Part shown: in pieces, positions 11,900-42,961 of the stretch
Position numbering within the stretch: position 1 is the first letter of the stretch
How the letters are laid out: the number at the start of each line of letters is the position of its first letter
Notes under the pieces: generated by a model
What the model saw: only the letters and a program-made list of their open reading frames with translations
What the model was told of the DNA's origin: nothing
The model's database searches: none
Made by a program: the position numbers and the translations under genes
NCBI RefSeq assembly: GCF_006716115.1
Contig: NZ_VFOO01000001.1
Location: forward strand, 372,001 to 436,000
DNA from: Subtercola boreus
Lineage (GTDB): Bacteria > Actinomycetota > Actinomycetes > Actinomycetales > Microbacteriaceae
Reading direction: 5' to 3'
Length of the DNA: 64,000 nt

Positions 11900-13003
11900 T
11901 TACGCGTTGACGACCGGCTTGTTGCCGACGCGCTGGCCGCTCTCGACGTCGAAGAGGTGCAGGTGGCCGGGCTTCGCGGTCAGGTAGACCTTCTCGCCGG
12001 CGTTCGGGTGCACGCGGCCGTCGACGCGCGTGACGAGGTCGGTGCGGCGGCCGTTGATCTCCGCGTGGCCGTAGAGGTAGCCGTCGGCTCCGAGCTCCTC
12101 GATCAGGTCGATGTCGACGGGGAGGCCCTCGCCGAACTGCGACGCGACGACGATGTCCTCGGGGCGCACACCGATGGTGACCGTCTTGCCGCTGATCGAA
12201 CCGAGCAGTTCGCGCTCGACGGGGATGACCGAGGTGCCGAACTGCACACCGCCGTCGACCACGTCCGCGACGAACAGGTTCATCGCGGGGCTGCCGATGA
12301 AGCCGGCGACGAAGACGTTCTCGGGCTTCTCGTAGAGGTCGCGCGGGGTGCCGACCTGCTGCAGCAGGCCGTCCTTCAGCACGGCGATGCGGTCGCCCAT
12401 GGTCAGGGCCTCCGTCTGGTCGTGGGTGACGTAGACCGTGGTGACGCCGAGGCGGCGCACGAGCGAGGCGATCTGGGTGCGGGTCTGCACGCGGAGCTTC
12501 GCGTCGAGGTTCGACAGCGGCTCATCCATCAGGAACACCTGGGGCTGGCGCACGATGGCACGGCCCATGGCGACGCGCTGGCGCTGGCCACCCGAGAGGG
12601 CCTTCGGCTTCCGGCCGAGGTAGGGCTCGAGGTCGAGGAGCTTCGCCGCCTCGAGAACCCGCGTGGCCCGCTCGTCTTTGTTGACGCCGGCGATCTTCAG
12701 GGCGAAGCCCATGTTCTCGGCGACGGTCATGTGCGGGTAGAGCGCATAGTTCTGGAAGACCATGGCGATGTCACGGTCCTTCGGGGGAACGTCGGTGACG
12801 TTGCGCTCGCCGATGAAGATGTTGCCCGAGTTGACCTCTTCGAGGCCGGCGAGCATTCGGAGGGAGGTCGACTTGCCGCAACCGGAGGGGCCGACGAGAA
12901 CGAGGAACTCGCCGTCGGCGGTCTCGAGGTTCAGCTGGTCGACAGCCGGCCTTGTGGAACCCGGGTACAGGCGGGTTGCGTGGTCGAATGTTACAGACGC
13001 CAT
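11900..13003 (-). CDS. msiK: ABC transporter ATP-binding protein, MsiK/UgpC type
   Basis: 367 residues. Walker A GPSGCGKST, ABC signature LSGGQRQRVAMGRA, Walker B VFLMDEPLSNLDA and H-loop YVTHDQTEA are intact. The C-terminal TOBE/OB-fold regulatory domain includes GVRPEDI. This class energises carbohydrate (CUT1) importers. No permease or binding-protein genes are nearby, as for Streptomyces MsiK, one ATPase serving many sugar importers; that role is inferred. The ATG at 13003 has GAAGGAAG upstream, so the in-frame extension to 13180 is rejected. A hairpin follows. Confidence 0.9.
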   Translation of the reverse strand: MASVTFDHATRLYPGSTRPAVDQLNLETADGEFLVLVGPSGCGKSTSLRMLAGLEEVNSGNIFIGERNVTDVPPKDRDIAMVFQNYALYPHMTVAENMGFALKIAGVNKDERATRVLEAAKLLDLEPYLGRKPKALSGGQRQRVAMGRAIVRQPQVFLMDEPLSNLDAKLRVQTRTQIASLVRRLGVTTVYVTHDQTEALTMGDRIAVLKDGLLQQVGTPRDLYEKPENVFVAGFIGSPAMNLFVADVVDGGVQFGTSVIPVERELLGSISGKTVTIGVRPEDIVVASQFGEGLPVDIDLIEELGADGYLYGHAEINGRRTDLVTRVDGRVHPNAGEKVYLTAKPGHLHLFDVESGQRVGNKPVVNA

Positions 13004-13147
13004 GATTTCTTCTCTTCCTTCACCGGCAGGTACGTGCCGGACGATCCGTTGTGATGGATGGCGGGACAACGACATCGGTGACCCGCCTCCCAGTATGACA
13101 CGCCAGCCGTTTACCGCATTCTCAGTCTGGTTCATTACTATCGGTGG

Positions 13148-14038
13148 ATGCCCGAAGACAGTCGCCAGAACAAGAACCAACGCCGCGAGGCAGCCCGGGA
13201 GAAGGCGAAGCAGCTGCGTGAGCAGCAGCGACGGAAAGACATTCGCAACCGCGCGATCCTCTTCAGCGGCCTGGGCGTCGTCGTCATCGCCATCGTGGTG
13301 TGCGTCGTACTGATCGTCGCGAGCTCGGCGAAGCCCGCCGGCCCGGGCCCGCTCAACATGGCCAGCGACGGCATCAAGATCAGCCAGGGCAACGTGGCGG
13401 AGACGACGCCGGCCCTCGCCGACGGCCAGCAGCCGACGCCGAGTGCCACCAACGCTGCCGGTGTCATCGACATCCGCGTCTACATCGACTACCTATGCCC
13501 CTACTGCGGCCAGTTCGAGTCGACGAACCTCACCCAGATCGGCAAGTGGATCGACAGCGGCGCTGCGACGTACGAGATCCACCCGCTGGCCCTCCTCGAC
13601 CGCTCTTCGCAGGGCACCAGGTATTCGAGTCGGTCGGCCAATGCTGCCGCCTGTGTGGCGAACTACTCGCCGAACAACTTCTACGATTTCAGCGCCCTCC
13701 TGTTCTCGAACCAGCCGCAGGAGAGCACCACCGGGCTTGACGACGCGACTCTGCAGGACCTGGCGAAGCAGGCCGGTGTCGGCTCGGTCGACCAGATCAA
13801 CACCTGCATCACTGACGAGCAGTTCAAGGGCTGGGTGAGCGATTCCACCACCCGTGCCACGACCGAACCACTGCCGGGTTCCACCCTCGCCAAGGTGACG
13901 GGCACTCCGACCGTGCTGGTCGACGGCCAGCAGTACCAGGGCTCGCTGACCGACGCGAACGCCTTCGCGAACTTCGTGCTGCAGGTCTCGGGCCAGACGT
14001 CGTCGACGTCGACGCCCACCCCGACACCGACGCCGTAG
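13148..14038 (+). CDS. Membrane-anchored DsbA-like thioredoxin-fold protein
   Basis: 296 residues. A charged cytoplasmic N-terminus (1-36) is followed by one membrane segment (about 37-58) and an extracellular DsbA-like domain with the redox pair CPYC in IDYLCPYCGQFES and the cis-Pro loop (TGTPTVLVDG). Two extra Cys (AACVANY, NTCITD) may form a structural disulfide. A Thr-Pro tail ends the protein. It probably oxidises or shuffles disulfides in secreted proteins. TACTAT plus six bases before the ATG suggests leaderless transcription. Confidence 0.88.
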   Translation: MPEDSRQNKNQRREAAREKAKQLREQQRRKDIRNRAILFSGLGVVVIAIVVCVVLIVASSAKPAGPGPLNMASDGIKISQGNVAETTPALADGQQPTPSATNAAGVIDIRVYIDYLCPYCGQFESTNLTQIGKWIDSGAATYEIHPLALLDRSSQGTRYSSRSANAAACVANYSPNNFYDFSALLFSNQPQESTTGLDDATLQDLAKQAGVGSVDQINTCITDEQFKGWVSDSTTRATTEPLPGSTLAKVTGTPTVLVDGQQYQGSLTDANAFANFVLQVSGQTSSTSTPTPTPTP

Positions 14039-14044
14039 CGATCA

Positions 14045-14077
14045 GCGCTGGAGGCGTTCCCCGAACGCCTCCAGCGC
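14045..14077 (+). terminator. Terminator after the DsbA-like gene
   Basis: A perfect 15-bp stem (GCGCTGGAGGCGTTC with its complement) around a CCC loop begins six bases after the stop codon and insulates the downstream tRNA gene. Confidence 0.85.
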
Positions 14078-14135
14078 ACCCTCCACGCGCTGTGCGGACC
14101 CGGTGTCGGCATGGCTAGAATGGGGTGTTCCATCT

Positions 14136-14208
14136 GCCGGCGTGGCGCAATTGGTAGCGCACCGCTCTTGTAAAGCGGGGGTTGCGGGTTCAAGTCCCGC
14201 CGCCGGCC
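14136..14208 (+). tRNA. tRNA-Thr (anticodon TGT)
   Basis: A complete cloverleaf: acceptor GCCGGCG/CGCCGGC, D arm with GGTAGCGC, anticodon stem CCGCT/AGCGG with loop CTTGTAA (anticodon TGT), and T arm GCGGG-TTCAAGT-CCCGC. CCA is not encoded as such. A TAGAAT -10 lies near 14115-14120. It reads ACA/ACG-type threonine codons. Confidence 0.95.
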
Positions 14209-14273
14209 CCCTGTCAAACACTCGCACTGTCCCTGCATCACCCCAGTTCAAGCAGCGCCGACGGAGGCATGCG

Positions 14274-14996
14274 ATGAGAACCTTCCCCCGGGCTGGGCTG
14301 GTGCTCTCCGGGCTGGTTCTGCCTGCTGTGCTTCTCAGCGGCTGCGCGGCTTCACCGGGGCCGGCTCCAGCATCGGCCGGAGCGACCGCGGCGGCCAGTT
14401 CCACGACGGAGGCCAGCTCCACCCCGACGGCCGGCGTGCCCCGCGGAACGTCAAGCCCCTCAACGCCGACGGCCACTTCGGGCGCAGCCCCCGCCGCTGC
14501 CATCCCGACCGACTGCACCGACCTCATTGCTTCGTCGCCCTTCACCGACTCGTTCGGCGCGTGGCCCCTGAACGACACCGCGGTGATCGGAGCGCCGGGC
14601 ACCGAGTACTCGTATCCCGCCGGGTCGACCGTCCCGACTCCGGCGGCGAGTGGTGCGACCGTCGCCGAGACGCTCTCGGCCGCGACCCAGCTCCGGTGCG
14701 TCTGGCGCGACCCCCGGGCTGACATCACCTCGATGACGATCGAAATCGCGACCGTCGATCCGGCCATCGCGACGGGATACCTCGCGAGCCTGCCGGCACT
14801 CGGGTACACCTGCTCGCCGACGACGGCAGGCGCAGGCGCAGGCCTGGCATGTCTGCTCACCACGACCGACCCGAAGTACAGCGTCGACGTCGGCAGCACA
14901 TCCTTCCTCCGTGGTGACACGTATATCCACATCAGCCAGGCGAACGTCCAGACGCCCGGCCTCTTGGCCCTGCTCGAGTCGAGGCTCTGGGCCTGA
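14274..14996 (+). CDS. Putative lipoprotein, hypothetical
   Basis: 240 residues. The signal peptide ends in LLSGC (lipobox, Cys near residue 24) and is followed by an Ala/Ser/Thr/Pro linker to about residue 78. The globular domain contains four Cys that could pair (DCTDL, LRCVW, YTCSP, LACLL). No family recognised. The ATG has GGAGG a few bases upstream. It stands alone after tRNA-Thr. Confidence 0.78.
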   Translation: MRTFPRAGLVLSGLVLPAVLLSGCAASPGPAPASAGATAAASSTTEASSTPTAGVPRGTSSPSTPTATSGAAPAAAIPTDCTDLIASSPFTDSFGAWPLNDTAVIGAPGTEYSYPAGSTVPTPAASGATVAETLSAATQLRCVWRDPRADITSMTIEIATVDPAIATGYLASLPALGYTCSPTTAGAGAGLACLLTTTDPKYSVDVGSTSFLRGDTYIHISQANVQTPGLLALLESRLWA

Positions 14997-32085: not shown

Positions 32086-34094
<2,009 letters not shown>

Positions 34095-34123
34095 CTACGT
34101 GCGCGAGAAGCAAGGAGCGGCCG

Positions 34124-34816
34124 TTGGCGGATTTGATCGACACCACTGAGATGTACCTCAGAACCATTCTCGAACTCGAAGAAGAGAACATCACCCCGCT
34201 GCGGGCGCGCATTTCTGAGCGCCTCGGGCACTCCGGCCCGACCGTCTCGCAGACCGTCGGCCGCATGGAACGCGACGGGTTGGTGGTGGTCTCCACCGAT
34301 CGTCATCTCGAGCTGACCGGTCCCGGTCGCCGAAAGGCGATCCACGTGATGCGCAAGCACCGTCTCGCCGAGCGCCTGCTCAGCGATGTCATCGGGCTCG
34401 ATTGGGAGTTCGTGCACGAGGAGGCATGCCGCTGGGAGCATGTGATGAGCGAACAGGTGGAGCGGCGCATCCTCGAGATGCTCGACCACCCGACGGAGTC
34501 TCCCTACGGCAACCCGATCCCGGGTCTCGAAGAGCTCGGCGACACGGAGGCGATCCCCTTCACCCGGGGCGTGGTCAACATCGTCACGCTGGTGCACGGT
34601 GCGGTGGGCCCGCAGACGAAGATCATCCGGCGCCTGGGCGAACCGGCACAGGTCGACCCCGAGCTGTTGCTGCAGCTGAAGCAGTCCGGTGTGGTTCCGG
34701 GCAACTCGGCGGCATTCTCGGCCGCCGGCTCCTACGTTCTGGTCGAGGTCGAGGGGTTCAGCCAGGGGCTCGAGCTGCCCAACGAGGTGGCGAGTCACAT
34801 CTTCGTCGGCATCTGA
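34124..34816 (+). CDS. DtxR/IdeR-family metal-dependent repressor
   Basis: 230 residues from a TTG with AGGAG six bases upstream. The winged helix (TTEMYLRTILELEEE, GHSGPTVSQTVGRMERDGLV) is followed by the dimerisation/metal domain with HRLAERLLSDVIG and CRWEHVMSEQVE, which hold Cys, His and Glu ligands, then an SH3-like C-terminal domain. It represses iron or manganese uptake genes when metal is bound; which metal is not visible. A TACCCT -10 lies near 34091. Confidence 0.93.
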   Translation: MADLIDTTEMYLRTILELEEENITPLRARISERLGHSGPTVSQTVGRMERDGLVVVSTDRHLELTGPGRRKAIHVMRKHRLAERLLSDVIGLDWEFVHEEACRWEHVMSEQVERRILEMLDHPTESPYGNPIPGLEELGDTEAIPFTRGVVNIVTLVHGAVGPQTKIIRRLGEPAQVDPELLLQLKQSGVVPGNSAAFSAAGSYVLVEVEGFSQGLELPNEVASHIFVGI

Positions 34817-34879: not shown

Positions 34880-35072
34880 GTTTCAAGGTGACAAAGCCGG
34901 GGGCCTCCCGTACCATCGAACAAGTCCACGGGGCTGAGAACCAGCCCCCGGCACGACGAAGACAACCAATCACAGACACAGACAAACCCGGCGCTCCGCG
35001 GTCCTCTCCCCCGAGGGCACGGCTGAGAGCCGGGGCTGCGACCTAGACCGCAGCGTGCCGGAGGAAAGAATC
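34880..35072 (+). promoter_or_regulatory. Structured 5' leader of the NlpC/P60 gene, candidate riboregulator
   Basis: A 9-bp stem (GCCGGGGGC at 34896-34904 with 34944-34952) encloses 39 bases. A second structure at 35016-35059 can fold as a three-way junction: closing stem GGCAC/GTGCC, hairpin GGCT-GAG-AGCC, hairpin GCTGCG/CGCAGC. It ends exactly at the Shine-Dalgarno GGAGGA. TCCTC at 35002-35006 could pair with GAGGA of the ribosome site instead. The element GGCTGAGARCC occurs in both structures. It matches neither the c-di-AMP nor the TPP riboswitch as I know them. Confidence 0.5.
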
Positions 35073-35897
35073 TTGCCCCTGTCGAGCGAATTGCCAGGCT
35101 CACCCGAGTCCAAGCCCAACCCGAAGAGCCTGACCCGCACCAGGGTCTCCCACGCAAAACCCCGCAAGTCCCTCAAGATCACGAAGCGCGGCATCGCCAG
35201 CACTGTGGTCATGACGGCAGCTGCCGGTCTGATCGCCACGATGGCGCTCCCGGCCTACGCCTTCAGCACCGCCGGCGCCTTCGACCCGAGCGCCTCCCTG
35301 AGTTCGGTCGAGACCGGCCAGCAGACCCTCGCGGTCGATGCTGCCGCCCTCGACTCGACGGTGAGCCGCGACGCCTACGTCGCTCCGAGCAAGGACGACG
35401 TCGCTGCCGAGAAGGCGAAGGTCGCAGCCGAGGCTGCCGCTGCCGCCGCGAAGGCAGCAGCGCTACAGGTCGCCACGGTGGCCAGCACGTCGGTGACGTC
35501 CAAGGCCAGCGCGTCGTCGAACAGCGGCATCGTCGTCAATCCGCCGTCGGGCCCCTACAGCGGTGAGGCCGTCGTCGACTTCGCCATGCAGTTCGTGGGC
35601 GTCGTCCCCTACGGTTCGGGCGCCAGCCCCGACACGAGCTTCGGATGCGACGGACTCACGCAGTACGTCTTCAAGCAGTTCGGCATCAATCTGCCCCGTA
35701 CGGTGAGCAACCAGGCGGCCATGGGCACGCGGATCTCCGCGTCGGACGCACAGCCCGGCGACCTCATGATTTACTCGATCGGCCACGTCGGCATCTACGC
35801 CGGCAACGGCAAGATGATCGACTCGCCCGACTGGGGCCGTTTCGTCGAGTACCGCCCGGTCTGGGGCAGCTACTACTTCGTGCGGTTGGGTATCTAA
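35073..35897 (+). CDS. Secreted NlpC/P60 (C40) peptidase, short N-module
   Basis: 274 residues from a TTG with GGAGGAAAG upstream. A basic N-terminus leads into a hydrophobic export segment (about 43-64, ending MALPAYAFSTAGAF). An Ala/Lys linker follows, then the C40 domain (165-274) with catalytic Cys192 in FGCDGLTQYVF and His238 in IGHVGIYAG. It probably cuts peptidoglycan stem peptides. The N-module is shared with the next gene eight bases downstream; the C-module is shared with the gene at 38114. Confidence 0.9.
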   Translation: MPLSSELPGSPESKPNPKSLTRTRVSHAKPRKSLKITKRGIASTVVMTAAAGLIATMALPAYAFSTAGAFDPSASLSSVETGQQTLAVDAAALDSTVSRDAYVAPSKDDVAAEKAKVAAEAAAAAAKAAALQVATVASTSVTSKASASSNSGIVVNPPSGPYSGEAVVDFAMQFVGVVPYGSGASPDTSFGCDGLTQYVFKQFGINLPRTVSNQAAMGTRISASDAQPGDLMIYSIGHVGIYAGNGKMIDSPDWGRFVEYRPVWGSYYFVRLGI

Positions 35898-35905
35898 GCC
35901 CCTCC

Positions 35906-37183
35906 ATGACTGAAGTTCCATCAACGAGGCGAGCGCGCCGCGAGTACGAGCGGCTTCTCAGCGAACGTGCTGACGGCGGTCGGGCGACGGAGATCCCGCA
36001 GGGGATCGTCGAGCACCTGACGCGTGCGGCTGCGCCAGTACGGGCAGGTGCACCCGTCGTCGCGCCGGTGCCGGTCATCCCTCCACAGGTGATGGCGCAC
36101 CTGGTGCCCGCGTCGATCAGCCCGGCGGCGGTCGTGCCCGTCGCGAGCACCCCCGCGGCAGCCGCGCCCACGGCGATCACTTCCACCGCAGTTGCGCCGT
36201 CGGAGATCGTGCTGGCGCCAGTCACACCCGCGGCCCATGCGGCAGCTGCCGCGCCTCCGCCCCGGGATGTCGCGCGGCCGCGCTCTGCGCCACGCACCCC
36301 CGCCACGGCCCCTGCGCTGCTTGGTCGGCCCGGCCGGTCGAAGCCCTCGAAGAAGCGCAGGGTCGCGAACATCGCCGTCATGACTGCCGCCTTCGGCCTG
36401 ATCGCGACCATGGCGCTTCCCGCCTACGCGTTCTCCACGTCGGGCGCGTTCACCCCCGTCTCCGACTCGGCGCCCTTCGGTGCCGGGCAGCAGAGCATCC
36501 AGAGCAGCCTCGACCAGGCCGCGCTCTCGGTGACTCGCGACGACTACAAGGCACCCACCCAGGACGAGCTGAAGGCGCAGCAGCTGGCCGCAGCCGCCGC
36601 CGCACAGGCCGCCTCGCAGGCTGCGGCCCTGAAGCTCTCGTCGGGCAGCGCGATTGCGGCTGCGGCCTACCCTTCGACGGTCTCGCCCGCCGTGCAGGCG
36701 CTCGCCCAGCAGCTGATGGATGCCGTCGGCACCGGGCAGCTCGTCGGCTCCCGCCCCGACCACATCAAGGAGATCGGGTACCTCGCCGCGGGCCAGGTGG
36801 TCGACGGCTGCGGCGTCGACATCCGCGTGCTGCAGACCATCAAGGTCGCGATCGACAACTTCTCCAAGGTCGGGGTGAGCGACATCAACCGGCTCTGCAC
36901 CGGGCAGATCGAGGGAGCCGGTACGGCTTCCCCGCATTATCGGGCAGGGGGCGGGCACGCTGTGGACTTCTACATCCTCAACGGCCACAGCCTCACCGGC
37001 GGCGATTCGGATTCGATGAAACTGCTCCGGCTGCTCGACCCGCTCGTGCCGCCGAACACGAATGTCGGCCAGAGCGGTTGCCGGTCATCCGGTTCCGGCT
37101 TCGTGAACCTGTCCGAGTTCAGCGACTCCTGTAGCCACCTGCACGTCGACTTCATCAGTGCCCGCGGCTCGACCCTGAGCTGA
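35906..37183 (+). CDS. Secreted protein with LAS-peptidase-like C-terminal domain, short N-module
   Basis: 425 residues. A long Ala/Pro/Val-rich cytoplasmic N-terminus (1-150) precedes the same export module as its neighbour (ATMALPAYAFSTSGAF). An Ala-rich linker follows, then a C-terminal domain of about 170 residues with conserved IEGAGTASPHYRAGGGHAVDF and SCSHLHVDF segments. The His/Asp/His pattern recalls LAS-fold zinc peptidases (M15 type), but spacing is not canonical. The same domain ends the protein at 39672. Probably acts on the cell wall. Confidence 0.8.
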   Translation: MTEVPSTRRARREYERLLSERADGGRATEIPQGIVEHLTRAAAPVRAGAPVVAPVPVIPPQVMAHLVPASISPAAVVPVASTPAAAAPTAITSTAVAPSEIVLAPVTPAAHAAAAAPPPRDVARPRSAPRTPATAPALLGRPGRSKPSKKRRVANIAVMTAAFGLIATMALPAYAFSTSGAFTPVSDSAPFGAGQQSIQSSLDQAALSVTRDDYKAPTQDELKAQQLAAAAAAQAASQAAALKLSSGSAIAAAAYPSTVSPAVQALAQQLMDAVGTGQLVGSRPDHIKEIGYLAAGQVVDGCGVDIRVLQTIKVAIDNFSKVGVSDINRLCTGQIEGAGTASPHYRAGGGHAVDFYILNGHSLTGGDSDSMKLLRLLDPLVPPNTNVGQSGCRSSGSGFVNLSEFSDSCSHLHVDFISARGSTLS

Positions 37184-37254
37184 CTCCGGGTGCGGCTCTC
37201 AACAGAGTGAGGCTGTGTGAACAGTCCGTTACAGGTTGCATCCCGCGTCGCCGA

Positions 37255-37452
37255 AGCCTAGGGATTCGGGCCGGAGTTTGTTAGCCTTCTCGCACTGATA
37301 TTCCTCGATCCATCGGGAGAGTTCGTGAACCAGGCAGCCTGCATCCCCACCACGGGTGACGTGCTGCGCGGCGTGCGAATACTCCAGTGCGTACACATAG
37401 CCCGCGGTTCACTGCGTGGTAAGGCGTTGTCTTCATGACAACGCCTTTTTTT
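37255..37452 (+). ncRNA. Candidate small RNA or small ORF in a 351-base gap
   Basis: The gap 37184-37534 has no recognised gene but ends in a strong intrinsic terminator at 37421-37452 (stem AAGGCGTTGTC with its complement, T7), about 240 bases after the previous stop. The transcript probably starts near 37290, after a possible TTGTTA / TATTCC promoter. A GTG-started 37-codon frame runs from about 37325 and stops in the terminator loop; its SD spacing is poor. I cannot match it to tmRNA, RNase P, SRP or 6S RNA. Confidence 0.45.
37421..37452 (+). terminator. Strong intrinsic terminator
   Basis: An 11-bp stem (AAGGCGTTGTC / GACAACGCCTT) with a 5-base loop and a T-run, the most classical terminator in the window. 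It ends 82 bases before the HNH gene. Confidence 0.9.
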
Positions 37453-37534
37453 GTGCCCGCACGCCTGGCGGATGACAGGACCATCAGCACCGTGGAATCC
37501 CTGGTAGCCGACCAGGGGCCTCGAAAGGGAGAAA

Positions 37535-38035
37535 ATGCGAACGCTGGTTTTGAACGCGGGCTATGAGCCGCTGGGTGTTGTGTCGTTCCGTCGAGCGCTC
37601 GTGCTCGTGATGAACGACAAGGCGAAGATCGTCGAGAGTGATGAGGATGCGCCGGTGTGGGCGTCATCCGGAGCGTATGAACGGCCGTCGGTCATCCTGC
37701 TGACGCGGTATGTGAAGGTTCCGAGCTCGCGCCAGGTTCCCGTCAGCCGGCGTGGGGTGCTGCGCCGCGACAACCAGCGCTGCGCCTACTGCGGAAAGTC
37801 GGCGACGACGATCGACCACATCCAGCCGCGCTCCCGGGGCGGGAAGGACACGTGGGAGAACCTCGTGGCCTGTTGCCTCCGCTGCAACAACCTCAAGAGC
37901 GACCGGACCCCGGCGGAGATGGGCTGGTCGCTCCGCGGTGGCCAGCCGCGCATGCCGCACCATGCGGGCTGGTTCGTCCGCGGGGTCGAACGTGCCGAGC
38001 CCGAATGGGAGGGCTACCTGCAGCCTGCCGCGTAG
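37535..38035 (+). CDS. HNH endonuclease-family protein
   Basis: 166 residues. The start MRTLVLNAGYEPLGVVSF and the zinc-HNH core RCAYCGKSATTIDHIQPRSRGG ... CCLRCNNLKSDRTP (Cys pairs, DH, N) are those of a widespread actinobacterial housekeeping-like HNH protein, not a mobile homing nuclease. GGGAG precedes the ATG. Function in the cell unknown. It lies inside the cell-wall island, downstream of the candidate small RNA. Confidence 0.92.
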   Translation: MRTLVLNAGYEPLGVVSFRRALVLVMNDKAKIVESDEDAPVWASSGAYERPSVILLTRYVKVPSSRQVPVSRRGVLRRDNQRCAYCGKSATTIDHIQPRSRGGKDTWENLVACCLRCNNLKSDRTPAEMGWSLRGGQPRMPHHAGWFVRGVERAEPEWEGYLQPAA

Positions 38036-38113
38036 CCGGCGTGGGTTCCGGATGATCGGGTTCCGGATGATCGTGAGCCGGTCATCCGGAGCCCACAGCA
38101 GCGCCTGCCGCTA

Positions 38114-39472
38114 CTAGACGATGCGGATGAAGATGTAGCTGCCCCAGAGCCCGGGGTTGTGCGTCACGTAGCGGCCCCAGTCGGGGGAGTGGATGACGCC
38201 GCCGTGGCCGTCGTAGATTCCGACGTGCGCGTTCGGCCAGACCACCAGGTCTCCGGCGCGGACCTGCGACGACGAGACGCGCACGCCCATCGCGGTCTGG
38301 GCGCTGACGAGTCGAGGCAGTTTGATGCCGAAGTGGCCGTACACCCACTGGGTGAGCCCGTCGCAGCCGAAGCTGTCGTTGGGGTTCGCGCCCCAGCCGT
38401 AGGGAACGACGCCGACGTACTGTTGGGCGTAGGCGACGACGGCATTACCGTCGAAGGGCTGGCCGGGGGAGTCGATTATCGGGGCGGGTGCGGGTGAACT
38501 GCTGCCGCCGCTGCCGCCGCTGCCACCGCTGGAACCACCGCTGGACGAGCCGCCGTTGCCTCCGCCCGACGAGCCACCGCCGGAGCTGCCCGACCCCGGG
38601 TTCGCTGCCGCTGCCGCCGCGGCTGCTGCAGCCGCCTGCGCGTCGGCCGCGGCCTGGGCGGCAGCGCGTGCCTGCTCCTCGGCGAGCTTCCGCTGTTGTT
38701 CGGCGACGACGCCGGCGTTGTACTGCTCTTCCGTCGTGATGGCGTTGCTGGTCAGGGCGGCGAGCTGCACCGTCATCTCGTCCTGGTGCGCCTCCTGCTC
38801 GAGCAGAGCGGCCTTCAGGCCCTGCTGCGCGTTCACCGCATCGGCGAGGGAGGCGGCTGCGGCGTCGGCGAGACTCGTGAGGGCCTTCTCGGCCTCATCG
38901 GCCTGAGCGCTCAGCGAGGTCGCGTTGTTCGCGTCCTGGGTAGCGGCTTCGAACACTTTCTTCGAGGTGTCGCCGAGCTTCGACATGGCGCCGAGCTGGT
39001 AGAGCAGGTTGTCGCTCTTCTCCCCGGAGACCAGCAGCTTCATCGACAGGTCTGTTCCGGCTGAGCGGGCGAACTGCGCGGTGAGCGCTGCGGCCTGCTT
39101 GCGGGAGGCCTCCGCCTTGGTTGTGGCTTCGGCGGCCTGGCTGCGGAGCTGCTGGGCCTTCAGTTGGCCGTCGGCCAGGGCGTTCTGCGCGGCCTCATTC
39201 GCGGCCCACGCCTTGTCGGCGACGGCCTGCGCTGCGGCGACCTGGCTCTGCAGCCCCGAGATGAGCCCCTGCAGGCGGCCGATCTCGGACTGCTTAGACG
39301 CTTCGTTCGCGCGAGCTGCGACGACATCGTTCCAGCTCGGGTAATTGTCGGCGTACACCGGCGAACCGCCGGTGATCGTCGCGGTCACGGCGAGGGCTGT
39401 GACGGCCAGTGAGACCACGAGGGTTCTCCACGGAGCGCGGCGGTGGGCAGCGCGGCGGGGGGATGACGACAT
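38114..39472 (-). CDS. Secreted NlpC/P60 (C40) peptidase, coiled-coil N-module
   Basis: 452 residues. Signal peptide (about 16-41, ending GSPVYADNYPSW). A long coiled coil (45-255, Ala/Gln rich) is followed by a Gly/Ser linker, then a C40 domain with the Cys in FGCDGLTQWVYGHFG and His in NAHVGIYDGHGG. The architecture resembles RipA/CwlO-type hydrolases whose coiled coil interacts with FtsEX. Its N-module is shared with the gene at 39672 and its catalytic domain with the one at 35073. A 9-bp repeat array lies upstream. Confidence 0.92.
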   Translation of the reverse strand: MSSSPRRAAHRRAPWRTLVVSLAVTALAVTATITGGSPVYADNYPSWNDVVAARANEASKQSEIGRLQGLISGLQSQVAAAQAVADKAWAANEAAQNALADGQLKAQQLRSQAAEATTKAEASRKQAAALTAQFARSAGTDLSMKLLVSGEKSDNLLYQLGAMSKLGDTSKKVFEAATQDANNATSLSAQADEAEKALTSLADAAAASLADAVNAQQGLKAALLEQEAHQDEMTVQLAALTSNAITTEEQYNAGVVAEQQRKLAEEQARAAAQAAADAQAAAAAAAAAAANPGSGSSGGGSSGGGNGGSSSGGSSGGSGGSGGSSSPAPAPIIDSPGQPFDGNAVVAYAQQYVGVVPYGWGANPNDSFGCDGLTQWVYGHFGIKLPRLVSAQTAMGVRVSSSQVRAGDLVVWPNAHVGIYDGHGGVIHSPDWGRYVTHNPGLWGSYIFIRIV

Positions 39473-39487
39473 GGATCCTCGAGTCTG

Positions 39488-39568
39488 TTTACGTTTGCCA
39501 CAGTCGTCACTCCAGTCACACGAGTCACTGCTATAACACCAACAACAGCGTTAACAGTAGCAACACCC
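39488..39568 (-). promoter_or_regulatory. Nine tandem 9-bp units upstream of the coiled-coil NlpC/P60 gene
   Basis: Reading the plus strand in steps of nine from 39488, positions 4-5 are always AC: TTTAC, GCCAC, GTCAC, GTCAC, GTCAC, ATAAC, ACAAC, TTAAC, GCAAC, each followed by four variable bases. The period matches the GTCAC-type 9-mer direct repeats reported for mycobacterial MtrA, a regulator of cell-wall hydrolases. The array starts 16 bases before the gene start on the minus strand. Confidence 0.65.
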
Positions 39569-39671
39569 CGGCGTGTTGCCTACAGTTCGCTGGGATGTGA
39601 TGCAGATTCCGGGCGCGTCGCAACAGCCCGGGCATCCATACCGGGTGTAGAGCCGTACGCTGAGGGCCGAC

Positions 39672-41087
39672 TTAGAAGTCGTCGACGTGCAGGTGGTTGC
39701 AGGTGTCGTAGAAGTCCGAGAAGTTCTTGAGGCTCGGTTCTGTGCCCGCCGACGTGCGGCAGTTGCGCTGCCCGAGGCCCGATCCGTAGGGCATGATCGG
39801 GTCGAGCGCCTTGATCAGGTTGATCGACGCGTTGTTCGAGCCGTTCAGCCCCACACCGCCCACCGCGATGAAGTCGACCGCGTGCCCGCCGCCGTTCCGG
39901 TAGTGGGCGGATGCCGTCCCGGCGCCCTCGATCTGGCCTGTGCAGCGGCGACTGATGTCGCTCACCGCGGCGCTGCCGAAAGCGCGTACCGCCGTCACCA
40001 TGGCCTGCAGGATCACCGTGTCGATACCGCAGTTCGGAACCGACTTGCCCGCCGCGATGTACGAGATCTCGAAGATGTGGTCGGGGTAGGAGCCGCGGAA
40101 CTGTCCGCTGGCCACATAGTCCATCAGCTCCTGGGCGAGCGCCTGCTGGTCGCCCGACACCGGGCCCACGCTGACGCCGCTTCCGGCTGCCCGTGCGGCG
40201 GCCGCTGCTGCTGCGGCGGCACGGGCAGCGGCGGCGCGCGCCTCGACGCCCGCCTGGTACTGCGCCTCCGTCGTGGCTGTGTTGCTCTGCAGGGAGGCCA
40301 GCTGGGCGTACAGCTCCTCCTGGTGGGCGCTCTGCTCGTTCAGCGCGGCGATGAGGTCGCGTTGCGCGGCCGCGGCCTGCTCGAGCGCGGCCTGTGCTGC
40401 CGCGGCGAGGCCGGCCAGAGCATCCTTCGCCACCTGCGCCTGCGCGCTGACCGAGGCGGCGGTGTTCGCGTCCTGTTTGGCCTGGTCGTAGATGCCGGTG
40501 ATGGTCTCGCTCAGCTTGCCCATCGAACTGAGCTGGGAGAGCAGGTCGCTGGCTTCGCTCGAATCACTGCCGAGCAGCAGGGACGTGATGTTCTGGCTGC
40601 CCGCCGACCGGGCGAACGTCGCCGCGATGAGGGCGGCCTGTCGACTGGAGGTGTCGGCTTTCGTCTGCCAGGTCGCGGCGCTCGCGGCCAGCGAATCGGC
40701 CTTGCTCTGGCCCGCGGCAAGCGCCGCCTGTGCGGCCTCGTCCTCGGCGCTCCGCTGCTCGACCAGTGCCTGAGCGGCGGCAGCCTTCTGCTGCAGGTCG
40801 CTGATGATCGCGTTGATGCGCTGCACCTCCGCCCCCTTCGCCGACTCGCTGCTGCGGGCGGCTTGCACGTCGTCCCACGTCGGGTAGTCGTCGGCGAACG
40901 CGGCGGTCGTCGGCCCGAGGATGGTGCCGGCGATCGCGAGAGCGGCGATCAGGATGCCCGTGGTGACCGTGCGTGTTCGGCGCTTCAGCGTGGTCGCGCC
41001 GCGCGCGCCCTTCGTGCTGACGCTCTGCGCGCGGCCTCGACGGCTCGCTACGGTGCCTCGCAGGGCGGGATGGGTCGGAGTGTTCAT
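39672..41087 (-). CDS. Secreted protein with LAS-peptidase-like C-terminal domain, coiled-coil N-module
   Basis: 471 residues from the ATG at 41087 (GGATCC just upstream, the same context as the 39472 start). Signal segment about 42-66 ending TTAAFADDYPTW, coiled coil to about 290, Ala/Arg stretch, then the domain with IEGAGTASAHYRNGGGHAVDF and CNHLHVDDF found also at 35906. The coiled coil aligns with the 38114 protein (YPxWxDVxAAR start). It probably binds or cuts peptidoglycan; catalysis is unproven. Confidence 0.82.
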   Translation of the reverse strand: MNTPTHPALRGTVASRRGRAQSVSTKGARGATTLKRRTRTVTTGILIAALAIAGTILGPTTAAFADDYPTWDDVQAARSSESAKGAEVQRINAIISDLQQKAAAAQALVEQRSAEDEAAQAALAAGQSKADSLAASAATWQTKADTSSRQAALIAATFARSAGSQNITSLLLGSDSSEASDLLSQLSSMGKLSETITGIYDQAKQDANTAASVSAQAQVAKDALAGLAAAAQAALEQAAAAQRDLIAALNEQSAHQEELYAQLASLQSNTATTEAQYQAGVEARAAAARAAAAAAAAARAAGSGVSVGPVSGDQQALAQELMDYVASGQFRGSYPDHIFEISYIAAGKSVPNCGIDTVILQAMVTAVRAFGSAAVSDISRRCTGQIEGAGTASAHYRNGGGHAVDFIAVGGVGLNGSNNASINLIKALDPIMPYGSGLGQRNCRTSAGTEPSLKNFSDFYDTCNHLHVDDF

Positions 41088-41267
41088 GGATCCTCGGGCG
41101 CTCGGGCACCCCCGTCGGGGCACGTCCACGGTCTTGTCTAACATCGCCGCCGCGCAGATGGATGCTGCGGCTGCGGTGATTCACCAACCCGAACGAATGC
41201 TGTGCATCCCCTTCGGCGCCGGGCGCTGCTCCCGCTCCGCGCCGGAGGCTGTAAACTCGTGCGGTCA

Positions 41268-41339
41268 GCCTCTGTAGCTCAATGGAAGAGCAAGTCCGTC
41301 CTAAGGATTAGGTTGGGGGTTCGAGTCCCTCCAGGGGCA
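41268..41339 (+). tRNA. tRNA-Arg (anticodon CCT)
   Basis: Acceptor GCCTCTG/CAGGGGC (one wobble), D arm GCTC-AATGGAA-GAGC, anticodon stem AGTCC/GGATT with loop GTCCTAA (anticodon CCT), and T arm with GTTCGAGTCC. It reads AGG codons. The accessory genes hipB and fic start within 420 bases downstream, so this tRNA may mark an insertion point. Confidence 0.93.
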
Positions 41340-41379
41340 CCCTGCTTTTGTTCGGTGTGCTGACGGCGGCAGGCTTCTC

Positions 41380-41423
41380 TGTGTGCGTACGGCGACATCT
41401 GCTAATGTGTGCGTACGGCGACA
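41380..41423 (+). promoter_or_regulatory. Two 18-bp direct repeats flanking the hipB promoter
   Basis: The identical 18-mer at 41380-41397 and 41406-41423 contains CGTACG and has a 26-base period. The TAATGT -10 (41403-41408) lies between and overlaps the second copy, so a repressor bound to both would block transcription. Autoregulation by the HipB-like protein is inferred. Confidence 0.65.
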
Positions 41424-41432
41424 GGGGCGACC

Positions 41433-41657
41433 ATGCGGACAGTGCGAGAAGCGGCAGCGGTCGTTCGTGAACTGCGGGAGCAGGCCGGTTTGACGCAGCT
41501 CCAACTCGCGGAACGCGCTCGGGTTTCACGATCGTTCGTGGCCGACCTCGAAGGCGGCAAGCCCACTGTCGAGGCCGGAAAGCTCATGGATGTGTTCCAG
41601 GCACTGGGGTTCGAGATCTCGCTCCGCGCTGAGGATTCCGGCGAGGTGCGCTGGTGA
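41433..41657 (+). CDS. HipB-like XRE-family antitoxin
   Basis: 74 residues, almost entirely a helix-turn-helix (VRELREQAGLTQLQLAERARVSRSF...), with the short C-terminal FEISLRAED typical of HipB antitoxins. AGGGG precedes the ATG. Normally hipB is followed by hipA; here only a stub remains. It therefore looks like the surviving half of a toxin-antitoxin operon, or a free regulator. Confidence 0.8.
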   Translation: MRTVREAAAVVRELREQAGLTQLQLAERARVSRSFVADLEGGKPTVEAGKLMDVFQALGFEISLRAEDSGEVRW

Positions 41658-41747: not shown

Positions 41748-41755
41748 ATGTGAGA

Positions 41756-42961
41756 ATGACGACGGATAACGAGCGCGAATGGCCGGCGGTCGGCTTCGAG
41801 TCCGTCGACTGGCAGGCGTCGAGTGAGCCGGGGGTGTCTCGGCGGGCTGCGCTGAAAGCCCGAGGGCCGTATGACGCCGCAATCCCGCCTCTCATCGCGG
41901 GCCTGCAGATTCCTGCGCTCGACTCTGAAACGGTGACGGGCGCTGAAGACGCGGTGATCGAGCTCGCTCGGTTCGACAGCGAGGTCGGAGCGATCGCCGC
42001 GCCTTTCTCGGCCATCCTTCTGAGGAGCGAGAGCGCCGCGAGTTCTGAAATCGAACATCTGACAGCGTCCGCGAAGAGCATCGCGCTGGCCGAGCTCGGC
42101 CGGAAGGCCGGGGGCAACTCTCGCCTCATCGTGGGCAACGTGCGTGCCATGGAGGCTGCGATCGAGATGGCCGAAGAGCTCGACGTCGCGACCATCATCA
42201 GCATGCAGTCGGCGCTTCTCCGAAACGACCAGCCCGAACACACGGGTGCGTGGCGCAATCAGGCTGTCTGGATCGGCGGAGGGTACGCGAACAGTCCGCA
42301 CTCGGCGGCGTTCGTCCCGCCCCGGCACGAACGCCTGGCCGAACTGATGGATGATCTGGTTGAGTTCGCCCGGCGAACCGATCTGCCGGTGATTGCCCAG
42401 ATCGCGATCGCCCATGCGCAGTTCGAAACCATCCATCCTTTCCCGGACGGCAATGGACGAACAGGTCGAGCGCTGATCCAAGCCATGTTGCACAGGCTGG
42501 GTGTGACGCGGCAGGTCACCGTGCCCGTCTCGGCTGGACTGCTGCGCGACACGTCCGCGTACTTCGCCTCGCTCACCGACTATCGCGCCGGAAATGTCGT
42601 CCCGATCATCCGCGCCGTGACTGATGCTTCTCTGGAGGCAGTGGTCAGTGGGCGGAAACTCGTCGTCGACCTCACAGCGATTCGCGCGCGCTGGGAGCGT
42701 GACGCCACACCACGAGCGGGAAGTGCGGGTCGACGGCTGCTCGACGTTCTCCAACGACAGCCTGTCATCGACGCGAATACGGTCGGCGCGGCTCTCGGTG
42801 TCAGCGAACGGAACGCGCAGAACGGCCTCGACCGGCTGGTCGGGGACGGCATCCTGCACCAGATCGGATCCGCGTCGCGGATGCGGGTCTACGAGGCGCG
42901 CGAGGTGCTGGCCGCCCTCGATGCCTTTGCGGCGCGGGCCAAGCGGGCGCGCGGGGCTTGA
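41756..42961 (+). CDS. Fic-domain protein with C-terminal winged helix
   Basis: 401 residues. An N-terminal FIC_N-like region holds a class II-type inhibitory helix, SSEIEH (96-101), with Glu100 able to block ATP; His replaces the usual Gly/Asn. The Fic core motif HPFPDGNGRTGR (227-238) is complete, so AMPylation activity is expected. The C-terminal third (325-395) looks like a winged helix (DANTVGAALGVSERNAQNGLDRL). The ATG is preceded by TAAGAT plus six bases. Targets unknown. No separate antitoxin gene is needed for this class. Confidence 0.92.
   Translation: MTTDNEREWPAVGFESVDWQASSEPGVSRRAALKARGPYDAAIPPLIAGLQIPALDSETVTGAEDAVIELARFDSEVGAIAAPFSAILLRSESAASSEIEHLTASAKSIALAELGRKAGGNSRLIVGNVRAMEAAIEMAEELDVATIISMQSALLRNDQPEHTGAWRNQAVWIGGGYANSPHSAAFVPPRHERLAELMDDLVEFARRTDLPVIAQIAIAHAQFETIHPFPDGNGRTGRALIQAMLHRLGVTRQVTVPVSAGLLRDTSAYFASLTDYRAGNVVPIIRAVTDASLEAVVSGRKLVVDLTAIRARWERDATPRAGSAGRRLLDVLQRQPVIDANTVGAALGVSERNAQNGLDRLVGDGILHQIGSASRMRVYEAREVLAALDAFAARAKRARGA

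Follow-up and report, generated by a model that had tools for sequence, protein, structure and literature searches.

Four genes for putative wall enzymes

The window analysed here is a 64,000-nucleotide stretch of the Subtercola boreus genome (contig NZ_VFOO01000001.1, forward-strand positions 372,001 to 436,000), and it carries an island of four genes for predicted cell wall proteins. Each protein joins one of two N-terminal modules, a short export module or a coiled-coil module (the coil), to one of two C-terminal domains, an NlpC/P60 domain of the C40 type or a LAS-like domain. We call the genes short-C40, short-LAS, coil-C40 and coil-LAS (Table 1). An earlier note on this DNA had claimed that all four combinations are present, and four reading frames carrying them are indeed found. 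Its description of adjacent, same-stranded pairs is correct within each pair, but the short pair on the plus strand and the coil pair on the minus strand are convergent, with an HNH endonuclease-like gene in between. Coil-LAS is the first gene of the minus-strand pair, located 199 bp ahead of coil-C40. Likewise, the term 'complete 2 x 2' is true of the four adjacent genes but not of the full set of combinations. The genome has more of these modules.

The two NlpC/P60 domains match the Pfam family NLPC_P60 with E-values of 1.7e-18 (short-C40) and 3.1e-16 (coil-C40), or 67 and 59.7 bits against a PF00877 cut-off of 23. They are the sole matches to this family, at E-values up to 0.001, in the host genome (4.2 Mb in two contigs, C1 and the 165 kb C2). 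Pairwise alignment of the modules, which the earlier note had proposed as a check, gave z scores of 24 to 66 for like modules when identities were compared with 200 residue shuffles. The individual values are 50 identities for the short modules (z 24), 67 for the C40 domains (59%, z 58), 141 for the coils (48% by BLAST, z 40) and 85 for the LAS domains (53% by BLAST, z 66). The control cross-pairs gave z 3.2 for short against coil, which is put down to low-complexity alanine, and z -0.8 for C40 against LAS. The four-gene observation is confirmed as real and unlikely to be due to chance.

The short module consists of a presumably cytoplasmic Pro/Ala-rich tail, one hydrophobic segment ending in LPAYA and about 60 further residues. 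In short-LAS and its look-alikes (e.g. L138, L134, L132 and L030), the N-terminal tails are very long, rich in Pro and Ala and presumably cytoplasmic, and they contain repeated SRRExRE-like motifs ahead of the hydrophobic segment. The start codon of short-C40 is a TTG at 35073, and the frame itself opens with a GTG at 35055.

Table 1. Features of the island and its borders, in window coordinates.
Feature	Position	Strand	Remarks
DtxR-type metal-dependent repressor gene	34058..34816	+	Pfam PF02742 (5.4e-29) and PF01325 (7.5e-18); left landmark of the conserved locus
short-C40	35073..35897	+	short export module and NlpC/P60 domain (Pfam NLPC_P60)
short-C40, short module	about 35193-35507	+	signal-like stretch with LPAYAF at its end
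short-C40, NlpC/P60 domain	35604-35876	+	Pfam
short-LAS	35906..37183	+	short module and LAS-like domain; begins 8 bp past short-C40
short-LAS, short module	about 36350-36625	+	
short-LAS, LAS-like domain	about 36674-37180	+	
HNH endonuclease-like gene	37535..38035	+	Pfam PF01844 (4.8e-14); located between short-LAS and coil-C40; right-hand landmark of the conserved locus
coil-C40	38114..39472	-	signal peptide-like start, coiled coil, Gly/Ser linker, NlpC/P60 domain
coil-C40, coiled-coil module	38699-39343	-	
coil-C40, NlpC/P60 domain	38183-38407	-	
coil-LAS	39672..41087	-	signal peptide-like start, coiled coil, LAS-like domain; frame opens at 41144
coil-LAS, coiled-coil module	about 40239-40886	-	
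coil-LAS, LAS-like domain	39675-40169	-	
tRNA-Arg(CCT)	41268..41341	+	ARAGORN; next to coil-LAS; marks the right edge of the island

Trees of the modules and domains

Trees were made for the coil (88 rows, and also a 75-row version, with partial rows labelled 'none' removed), for the C40 domain (73 rows by the careful method, with partial rows labelled 'na' removed) and for the LAS domain (110 rows). In the coil tree, coil-LAS forms one clade with a Shimodaira-Hasegawa-like approximate likelihood ratio test (SH-aLRT) support of 99. Coil-C40 falls into two groups, one of 12 rows from other genera and one of 15 rows of the type found in the window. The window-type coil-C40 and coil-LAS sequences together form a 35-row clade (SH-aLRT 98-99) from the genera labelled g1, g22, g37 and g88. 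A single clade of all 27 coil-C40 rows is rejected by the approximately unbiased (AU) test (p-AU 0.0099). Similarly, the C40 tree places 13 window-type coil-C40 domains within a 34-row clade that otherwise consists of short-C40 (100/100), and the five other coil-C40 domains, which belong to other genera, are located far apart (100/100). Here, too, a single clade of all 18 domains is rejected (p-AU 0.0088).

These trees of N- and C-terminal modules, which the earlier note had called for, indicate that coil-C40 arose twice and that domain exchange is real. Because the window-type coil-C40 is nested among short-C40 domains, a C40 domain of the short type would have become attached to a coil before g1, g22, g37 and g88 diverged.

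For the LAS domain, AU tests were made on a 98-row tree lacking 12 long-branch rows (10 'repeat' rows, L155 and L156). Coil-LAS is again one clade (95, and 93 in the 98-row tree), and short-LAS with its look-alikes forms a cluster of 39 rows (89). With midpoint rooting, the rows in which LAS is fused to a muramidase-like domain are scattered around coil-LAS and short-LAS. A single clade of the 22 LAS rows from the islands is rejected (p-AU 0.000126). The earlier note had suggested duplication with domain exchange. The exchange is borne out by the discordant trees and their AU tests, but an origin within the island is contradicted, for LAS, by this last result.

Conservation of the island and of its locus

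The earlier note had also proposed a search for the island in relatives, and the island proves to be complete in 11 of the 12 Subtercola genomes (the host genome, L023-L029 and L044-L046). The conserved order is SerC, DtxR, short-C40, short-LAS and HNH, followed by the convergent coil-C40 and coil-LAS. In the twelfth genome (G001, locus L043) the contig stops within short-C40, and a second short-C40 is present in the islands L027 and L046. The tRNA-Arg(CCT) gene lies close to the end of coil-LAS in 10 of the 11 island loci, and was not found there in S. vilae (L029). On the far side of this tRNA gene, the window contains a small helix-turn-helix gene (41409-41657) and then a Fic/DOC gene (41750-42961), an arrangement that resembles a toxin-antitoxin pair. 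Neither gene gave a tblastn match in the examined flanks of ten other complete Subtercola islands. In L028 (S. lobariae), a large serine recombinase-like frame, judged by eye, reaches the tRNA-Arg and coil-LAS end (about 12500-14338, minus strand), which suggests an element integrated at the tRNA gene.

At E-values up to 1e-8, a short-C40 query finds matches in 95 of 120 genomes of the family Microbacteriaceae, which represent 69 of 85 genera, partly through the C40 domain alone. We inspected 40 loci of other genera (L215-L254) located around the best short-C40 matches, all of which contain short-C40 by home-made profiles. A DtxR gene is found upstream of short-C40 in 37 of these, directly before it in 33 and with an intervening gene in four (short-M23 in three, LAS in one), and an HNH gene is found downstream in 36. 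Short-C40 is the resident gene of a conserved DtxR-HNH locus. The presence of a DtxR-type metal-dependent repressor upstream of the short gene or genes makes metal control of wall enzymes a possible link.

Some of these loci contain additional genes. A short-M23 gene precedes C40 in three (L220, L233 and L237), and a short-CHAP gene is added in seven, before HNH in L218 and after it in L223, L225, L231, L236, L240 and L246. Pfam confirms CHAP in four of the seven and M23 in one of the three, and the rest are assigned by home-made profiles. A LAS gene lies before C40 in L253, the only such case among the 40, and in two more loci of genus g88 (L180 and L181). The g88 proteins have N-termini that appear short-module-like by eye, with a tail, a hydrophobic segment and a similar length; the labels 'shortlike' and 'lysozyme-like' were both assigned in this manner. 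LAS proteins of genera g66, g39, g68 and g80 are matched weakly by the short-module profile (1e-5 to 6e-8). Since LAS is located after C40 in Subtercola and before C40 in g88, the two placements may be independent.

A wider matrix of modules and heads

The two-by-two set of the island is part of a larger matrix in the Microbacteriaceae. At E-values up to 1e-10, 118 of 120 family genomes, from 84 of 85 genera, contain a match to the coil. Across the family the coil carries an M23, C40 or LAS head, and the short module carries C40, M23, CHAP or LAS. The exchange of catalytic heads behind these N-terminal modules extends to the family as a whole. Outside g1, g22, g37 and g88, the coils inspected bear M23 or a different type of C40, and once a lysozyme-like tail. 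A coil-M23 gene followed by a coil-C40 gene on the same strand is found in 12 of 19 coil loci of other genera, which were picked from the best matches. Subtercola has the same tandem order, with LAS replacing M23.

The host genome has two coil-M23 genes beyond the island, and another coil gene at C1:1765306 whose tail appears lysozyme-like by eye and has no Pfam match. A PDB search with this tail returned only matches to WD40 repeats with no significant single stretch, and these were judged spurious. Contig C2 carries a coil-M23 gene (114071-114811, L126), such that a chromosome-type wall enzyme lies on the same contig as a muramidase-LAS fusion (L042). In S. vilae, two further coil-LAS copies (L048 and L049) are found off the island, and they form a separate branch in the coil and LAS trees.

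The LAS-like domain

Each of the 110 LAS-like domains aligned has the four residues H96, D106, H163 and H165 (short-LAS row numbering), as well as two Cys residues. A third Cys is found in 107. By analogy with MepA and 1lbu, we take the H ... D ... HxH set to be metal ligands. In two rows (L041 and L058), the spacing from the first His to the Asp is one residue shorter. An AlphaFold model from 31 sequences has a predicted local distance difference test (pLDDT) score of 92.7 and a predicted template modelling (pTM) score of 0.91, and its best Foldseek match in the PDB is MepA (E 0.019, probability 0.85). With VIA-align, the top 26 of 50 rows consist of Hedgehog N domains, the zinc DD-peptidase 1lbu, MepA and ChiX (Z 6.0-6.8), all of which are presumably LAS-superfamily members with H, D and H as zinc ligands. 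The LAS parts of the window proteins have no Pfam or NCBIfam match, and coil-LAS gave only weak NCBIfam matches of the coil type.

Of 199 genomes of the family, 39 have a LAS domain, and these belong to 21 of 85 genera. The domain is also found in three of 297 genomes of the order and in three of 394 of the class, where all hits are from Microbacteriaceae. In other genera, some LAS proteins have long C-terminal regions (L157-L164). In the samples searched, LAS is apparently an uncatalogued domain restricted to the Microbacteriaceae. A phage origin was considered and set aside, because two queries found no match in 50,697 phage records and PHROGs offered only two weak families. In IMG/VR, 46 stretches fit a sequence pattern and none was confirmed.

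There are five LAS domains in the host genome, two of them in the island. The others belong to another short-LAS at C1:1482384, to a secreted-looking protein in which LAS precedes DUF4214 repeats by Pfam (C1:2576046-2576624, L041), a layout that L058 seems to share, and to a fusion with a muramidase-like domain on C2 (84178-84645, L042). Fusions of the last kind are also found on plasmids, and their N-terminal half matches the solved muramidases 8b2h (E 3.6e-12) and 8b2e (2.5e-10). LAS is present in 45 PLSDB plasmid records, where all twenty rows among the matches listed are annotated as hypothetical proteins, and the plasmid genera shown are, we presume, all Microbacteriaceae. Two plasmid regions that were examined have genes for a type IV conjugative transfer protein, TraM-recognition proteins, relaxases and MobC nearby. 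On C2, a TrbC-like match below the curated cut-off lies two genes from the muramidase-LAS gene. The fusion to a muramidase-like domain on plasmids, beside conjugation genes, suggests that LAS is tied to wall cutting.

The coil module

The AlphaFold model of the coil (pLDDT 86.9) has two long helices (residues 4-96 and 110-214) and a short tip helix. The top VIA-align rows are RipA (6ewy, Z 13.5 over 200 residues), Cg1735 (8auc, 13.2) and RipA-SteB (9hmx, 12.9). An NCBIfam RipC model spans both the coil and the C40 domain of coil-C40 (residues 53-439, E 4.6e-10), well below its cut-off score. Eleven columns are invariant across 49 coils. RipC docks on FtsX, and its coil keeps the NlpC/P60 head in an inactive state (PMC10694151), whereas the RipA coil is bound by SteB (PMC12977500). 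By analogy with RipC and RipA, a regulatory docking role can be proposed for the Subtercola coil. In its predicted fold the coil resembles the regulatory coils of RipA, RipC and EnvC, and it probably docks its enzymes at the division machinery and restrains them there. The host genome has one FtsX_ECD match (E 1.1e-19, C1:786520). No FtsX gene was found beside the coil genes in the loci collected, where a tblastn search with the host FtsX gave matches at its own two loci alone.

The C40 active site

The catalytic Cys and His are each kept in 73 of 73 aligned C40 domains. The third polar residue of such enzymes is usually His. This position is occupied in the 18 coil-C40 domains by H (13), A (3) or E (2), and in the 55 short-C40 domains by D (40), H (13) or T (2). 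Some Subtercola have a short-C40 variant with the sequence GHTEIY (L027 5458-6549, L028 6639-7598, L043 and L046 6579-7844), and the two aligned rows of this variant have T at the third position.

Interpretation

We consider it reasonably probable that the four genes encode exported peptidoglycan hydrolases that combine two delivery modules with two catalytic heads, and that these parts predate the genus. We infer secretion, enzyme activity, bond specificity and division-site docking from architecture, conservation, tree discordance, invariant residues and predicted folds. The short module would export one set of enzymes, and the coil would dock the other set at the division machinery and restrain it. 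The C40 cysteine peptidase would cut the stem peptide next to D-Glu, while the LAS-fold zinc peptidase would cut at or near the D-Ala end or the cross-bridge, such that each of two sites or cell-cycle steps receives two complementary bond specificities. A short-type C40 would have been pasted behind a coil in an ancestor common to Subtercola, g22, g37 and g88, and LAS would have been joined to the coil and short modules before Subtercola arose. The Subtercola wall is described as B2-gamma peptidoglycan with 2,4-diaminobutyric acid, in which 3-hydroxyglutamic acid replaces most glutamic acid in S. vilae and others (PMC5945732). We infer that two chemistries are paired behind each address in this B2-gamma wall.

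Several points weigh against this interpretation. None of the Foldseek matches of the LAS model has an E-value below 0.001, its best VIA-align Z is below 8, with Amuc_1100 following the top 26 rows at 5.6, and none of 31 LAS domains matches any Pfam peptidase family, including M15 and M74, at E up to 1. There is likewise no PDB sequence match, and phage families are matched only weakly, with two of the 31 domains hitting a PHROG named tail protein (best E 0.0081). At the third C40 position, the window short-C40 has D and the window coil-C40 has H. The C40 tree is based on only 114 columns and has long branches, and the loci sampled, being best matches, are not a random draw. The short-module profile gave no match to the g88 LAS genes, and PLSDB types 31 of the 45 LAS plasmids as non-mobilizable and 14 as mobilizable. 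One examined Rathayibacter plasmid is typed as non-mobilizable, yet lists a relaxase and transfer genes. Both this typing and the missing profile match in g88 count against parts of the account given here.

One alternative places the origin of the island inside Subtercola, by tandem duplication of an ancestral pair whose heads were then swapped locally. The adjacency of the four combinations agrees with this, as does the grouping of both coil genes in one 35-row clade. However, that clade extends to g22, g37 and g88, where both coil-LAS and window-type coil-C40 are found, and in the four genomes having both (G032, G113, G047 and G098, of g22, g37 and g88) they lie on separate contigs. Parts shared with these genera on differing contigs would predate Subtercola, and the island would have gathered them. 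Moreover, the island short-LAS shares 69% identity with another chromosomal LAS copy but 53% with coil-LAS, and the coil of coil-C40 is hardly more similar to the Subtercola coil-LAS coils (47-48%) than to the coil-M23 coils of other genera (36-49%). Exchange inside the island is ruled out for LAS by the AU test under the model used, and for C40 by the same coil-C40 in outside genera. We consider a local origin very improbable and, on the evidence of the trees, would replace the local shuffle with a more ancient exchange in the family, in which different catalytic heads came to stand behind two delivery modules. For the LAS head, a single clade of all coil-LAS and short-LAS is not rejected (p-AU 0.388), and this also counts against our interpretation. 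It would allow LAS to have become attached to a chromosomal gene a single time, with later exchange between the coil and short modules. For the same reason, a clean plasmid-to-chromosome origin of LAS, which fits the placement in the tree, was not retained.

Two other alternatives concern function. The coil might be a mere spacer or wall-spanning stalk without docking or autoinhibition, in which case the N-terminal modules would not be site-directing. Coiled coils yield unspecific fold matches, and the lower VIA-align rows, with EnvC (8tzl) at 10.4 and RipC (8jia) at 10.3, are mixed with unrelated coiled coils at 10-12. The VIA guidance warns that a Z near 13 for a helical hairpin may reflect a common arrangement. 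The best Foldseek match, RipA 6ewy (E 0.0053), has SMC coils close behind, and the Pfam PcsB coil (PF24568) matched only one of 49 members, at 0.02. Nevertheless, the first three VIA-align rows are all RipA-type hydrolase coils, the coil model has a layout of helix, tip helix and helix, and the near-universal occurrence in the family together with the 11 invariant columns seems more than a spacer needs. We regard the spacer as unlikely. A shade less likely again is that LAS is a wall- or protein-binding domain and no enzyme. Signalling by Hedgehog N domains makes use of a LAS fold, and in EnvC a degenerate LytM fold serves as the activator; Hedgehog N domains are also the top VIA-align rows, and no known peptidase profile matches. 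Against this, the H, D and HxH residues are invariant even in copies with other partners, and LAS occupies the slot of C40, M23 and CHAP and, on plasmids, has a muramidase-like domain as its fusion partner.

The interpretation as paired hydrolases could be extended to a two-address wall-cutting system with interchangeable heads in the Microbacteriaceae, one that has been re-equipped repeatedly at one fixed locus. The export module and a division-type coil would be its constant addresses, and the target would be the B-type wall of the cell itself. LAS would be its newest head, an uncatalogued zinc peptidase recruited for that purpose from muramidase-fused wall-cutting proteins of conjugative plasmids. 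We offer this extension tentatively and hold it to be possible but doubtful.

Significance and comparison with known systems

The island amounts to a natural factorial experiment, in which a single genome pairs each of two delivery modules with each of two probable cutting domains. Such a set could help to distinguish the site of action of a wall enzyme from the bond that it cleaves. At the DtxR-HNH locus, the same evolutionary choice of a second hydrolase with another head has been made differently in several genera. The LAS domain is an unnamed peptidase-like domain with a clear active-site signature. It is carried by chromosomes as well as plasmids in actinobacteria whose peptidoglycan is of the unusual B type. 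Within the titles and abstract openings of the literature searched, this gene set is not described. Both the coil-plus-hydrolase architecture and head exchange are already known ideas, and LAS is an undescribed domain in the libraries searched.

Coil-C40 shares with RipA, RipC and Cg1735 a predicted layout of signal peptide, coiled coil, flexible linker and C-terminal NlpC/P60 domain, and its coil model is closest to the coils of these proteins. Descriptions of this architecture are given in PMC10694151 (RipC) and PMC12977500 (RipA-SteB). Unlike these systems, the Microbacteriaceae coil also bears M23 or LAS, often in tandem pairs with different heads.

The principle of one regulatory coil with differing heads is also that of EnvC, CwlO and PcsB, which belong to the FtsEX class and have LytM, NlpC/P60 or CHAP heads; EnvC (8tzl, 6tpi) and PcsB (4cgk) are among the fold matches of the coil. 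The present case differs in that a single genome combines the same coil with several heads, one of them LAS-like, and the sequence match to the PcsB coil is marginal.

In its predicted fold, its S-x-H ... A-x-D ... H-x-H order and its zinc-type ligand set, the LAS-like domain resembles the LAS peptidases (MepA, 1lbu, ChiX and DacB/LdcB) and Hedgehog N domains. It differs from LAS peptidases in its conserved Cys residues, in its absence from Pfam peptidase and PDB sequence matches and in its restriction to Microbacteriaceae in the samples. It also has two to three extra residues from the first His to the Asp relative to the classical LAS spacing.

Finally, the N-terminal half of the plasmid LAS fusion is similar to GH184-type muramidases, as its matches 8b2e and 8b2h belong to a paper whose title concerns the GH184 family (PMC10394673). 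In contrast to those muramidases, the domain is here fused to LAS and located among conjugation genes in the two actinobacterial plasmid regions examined.

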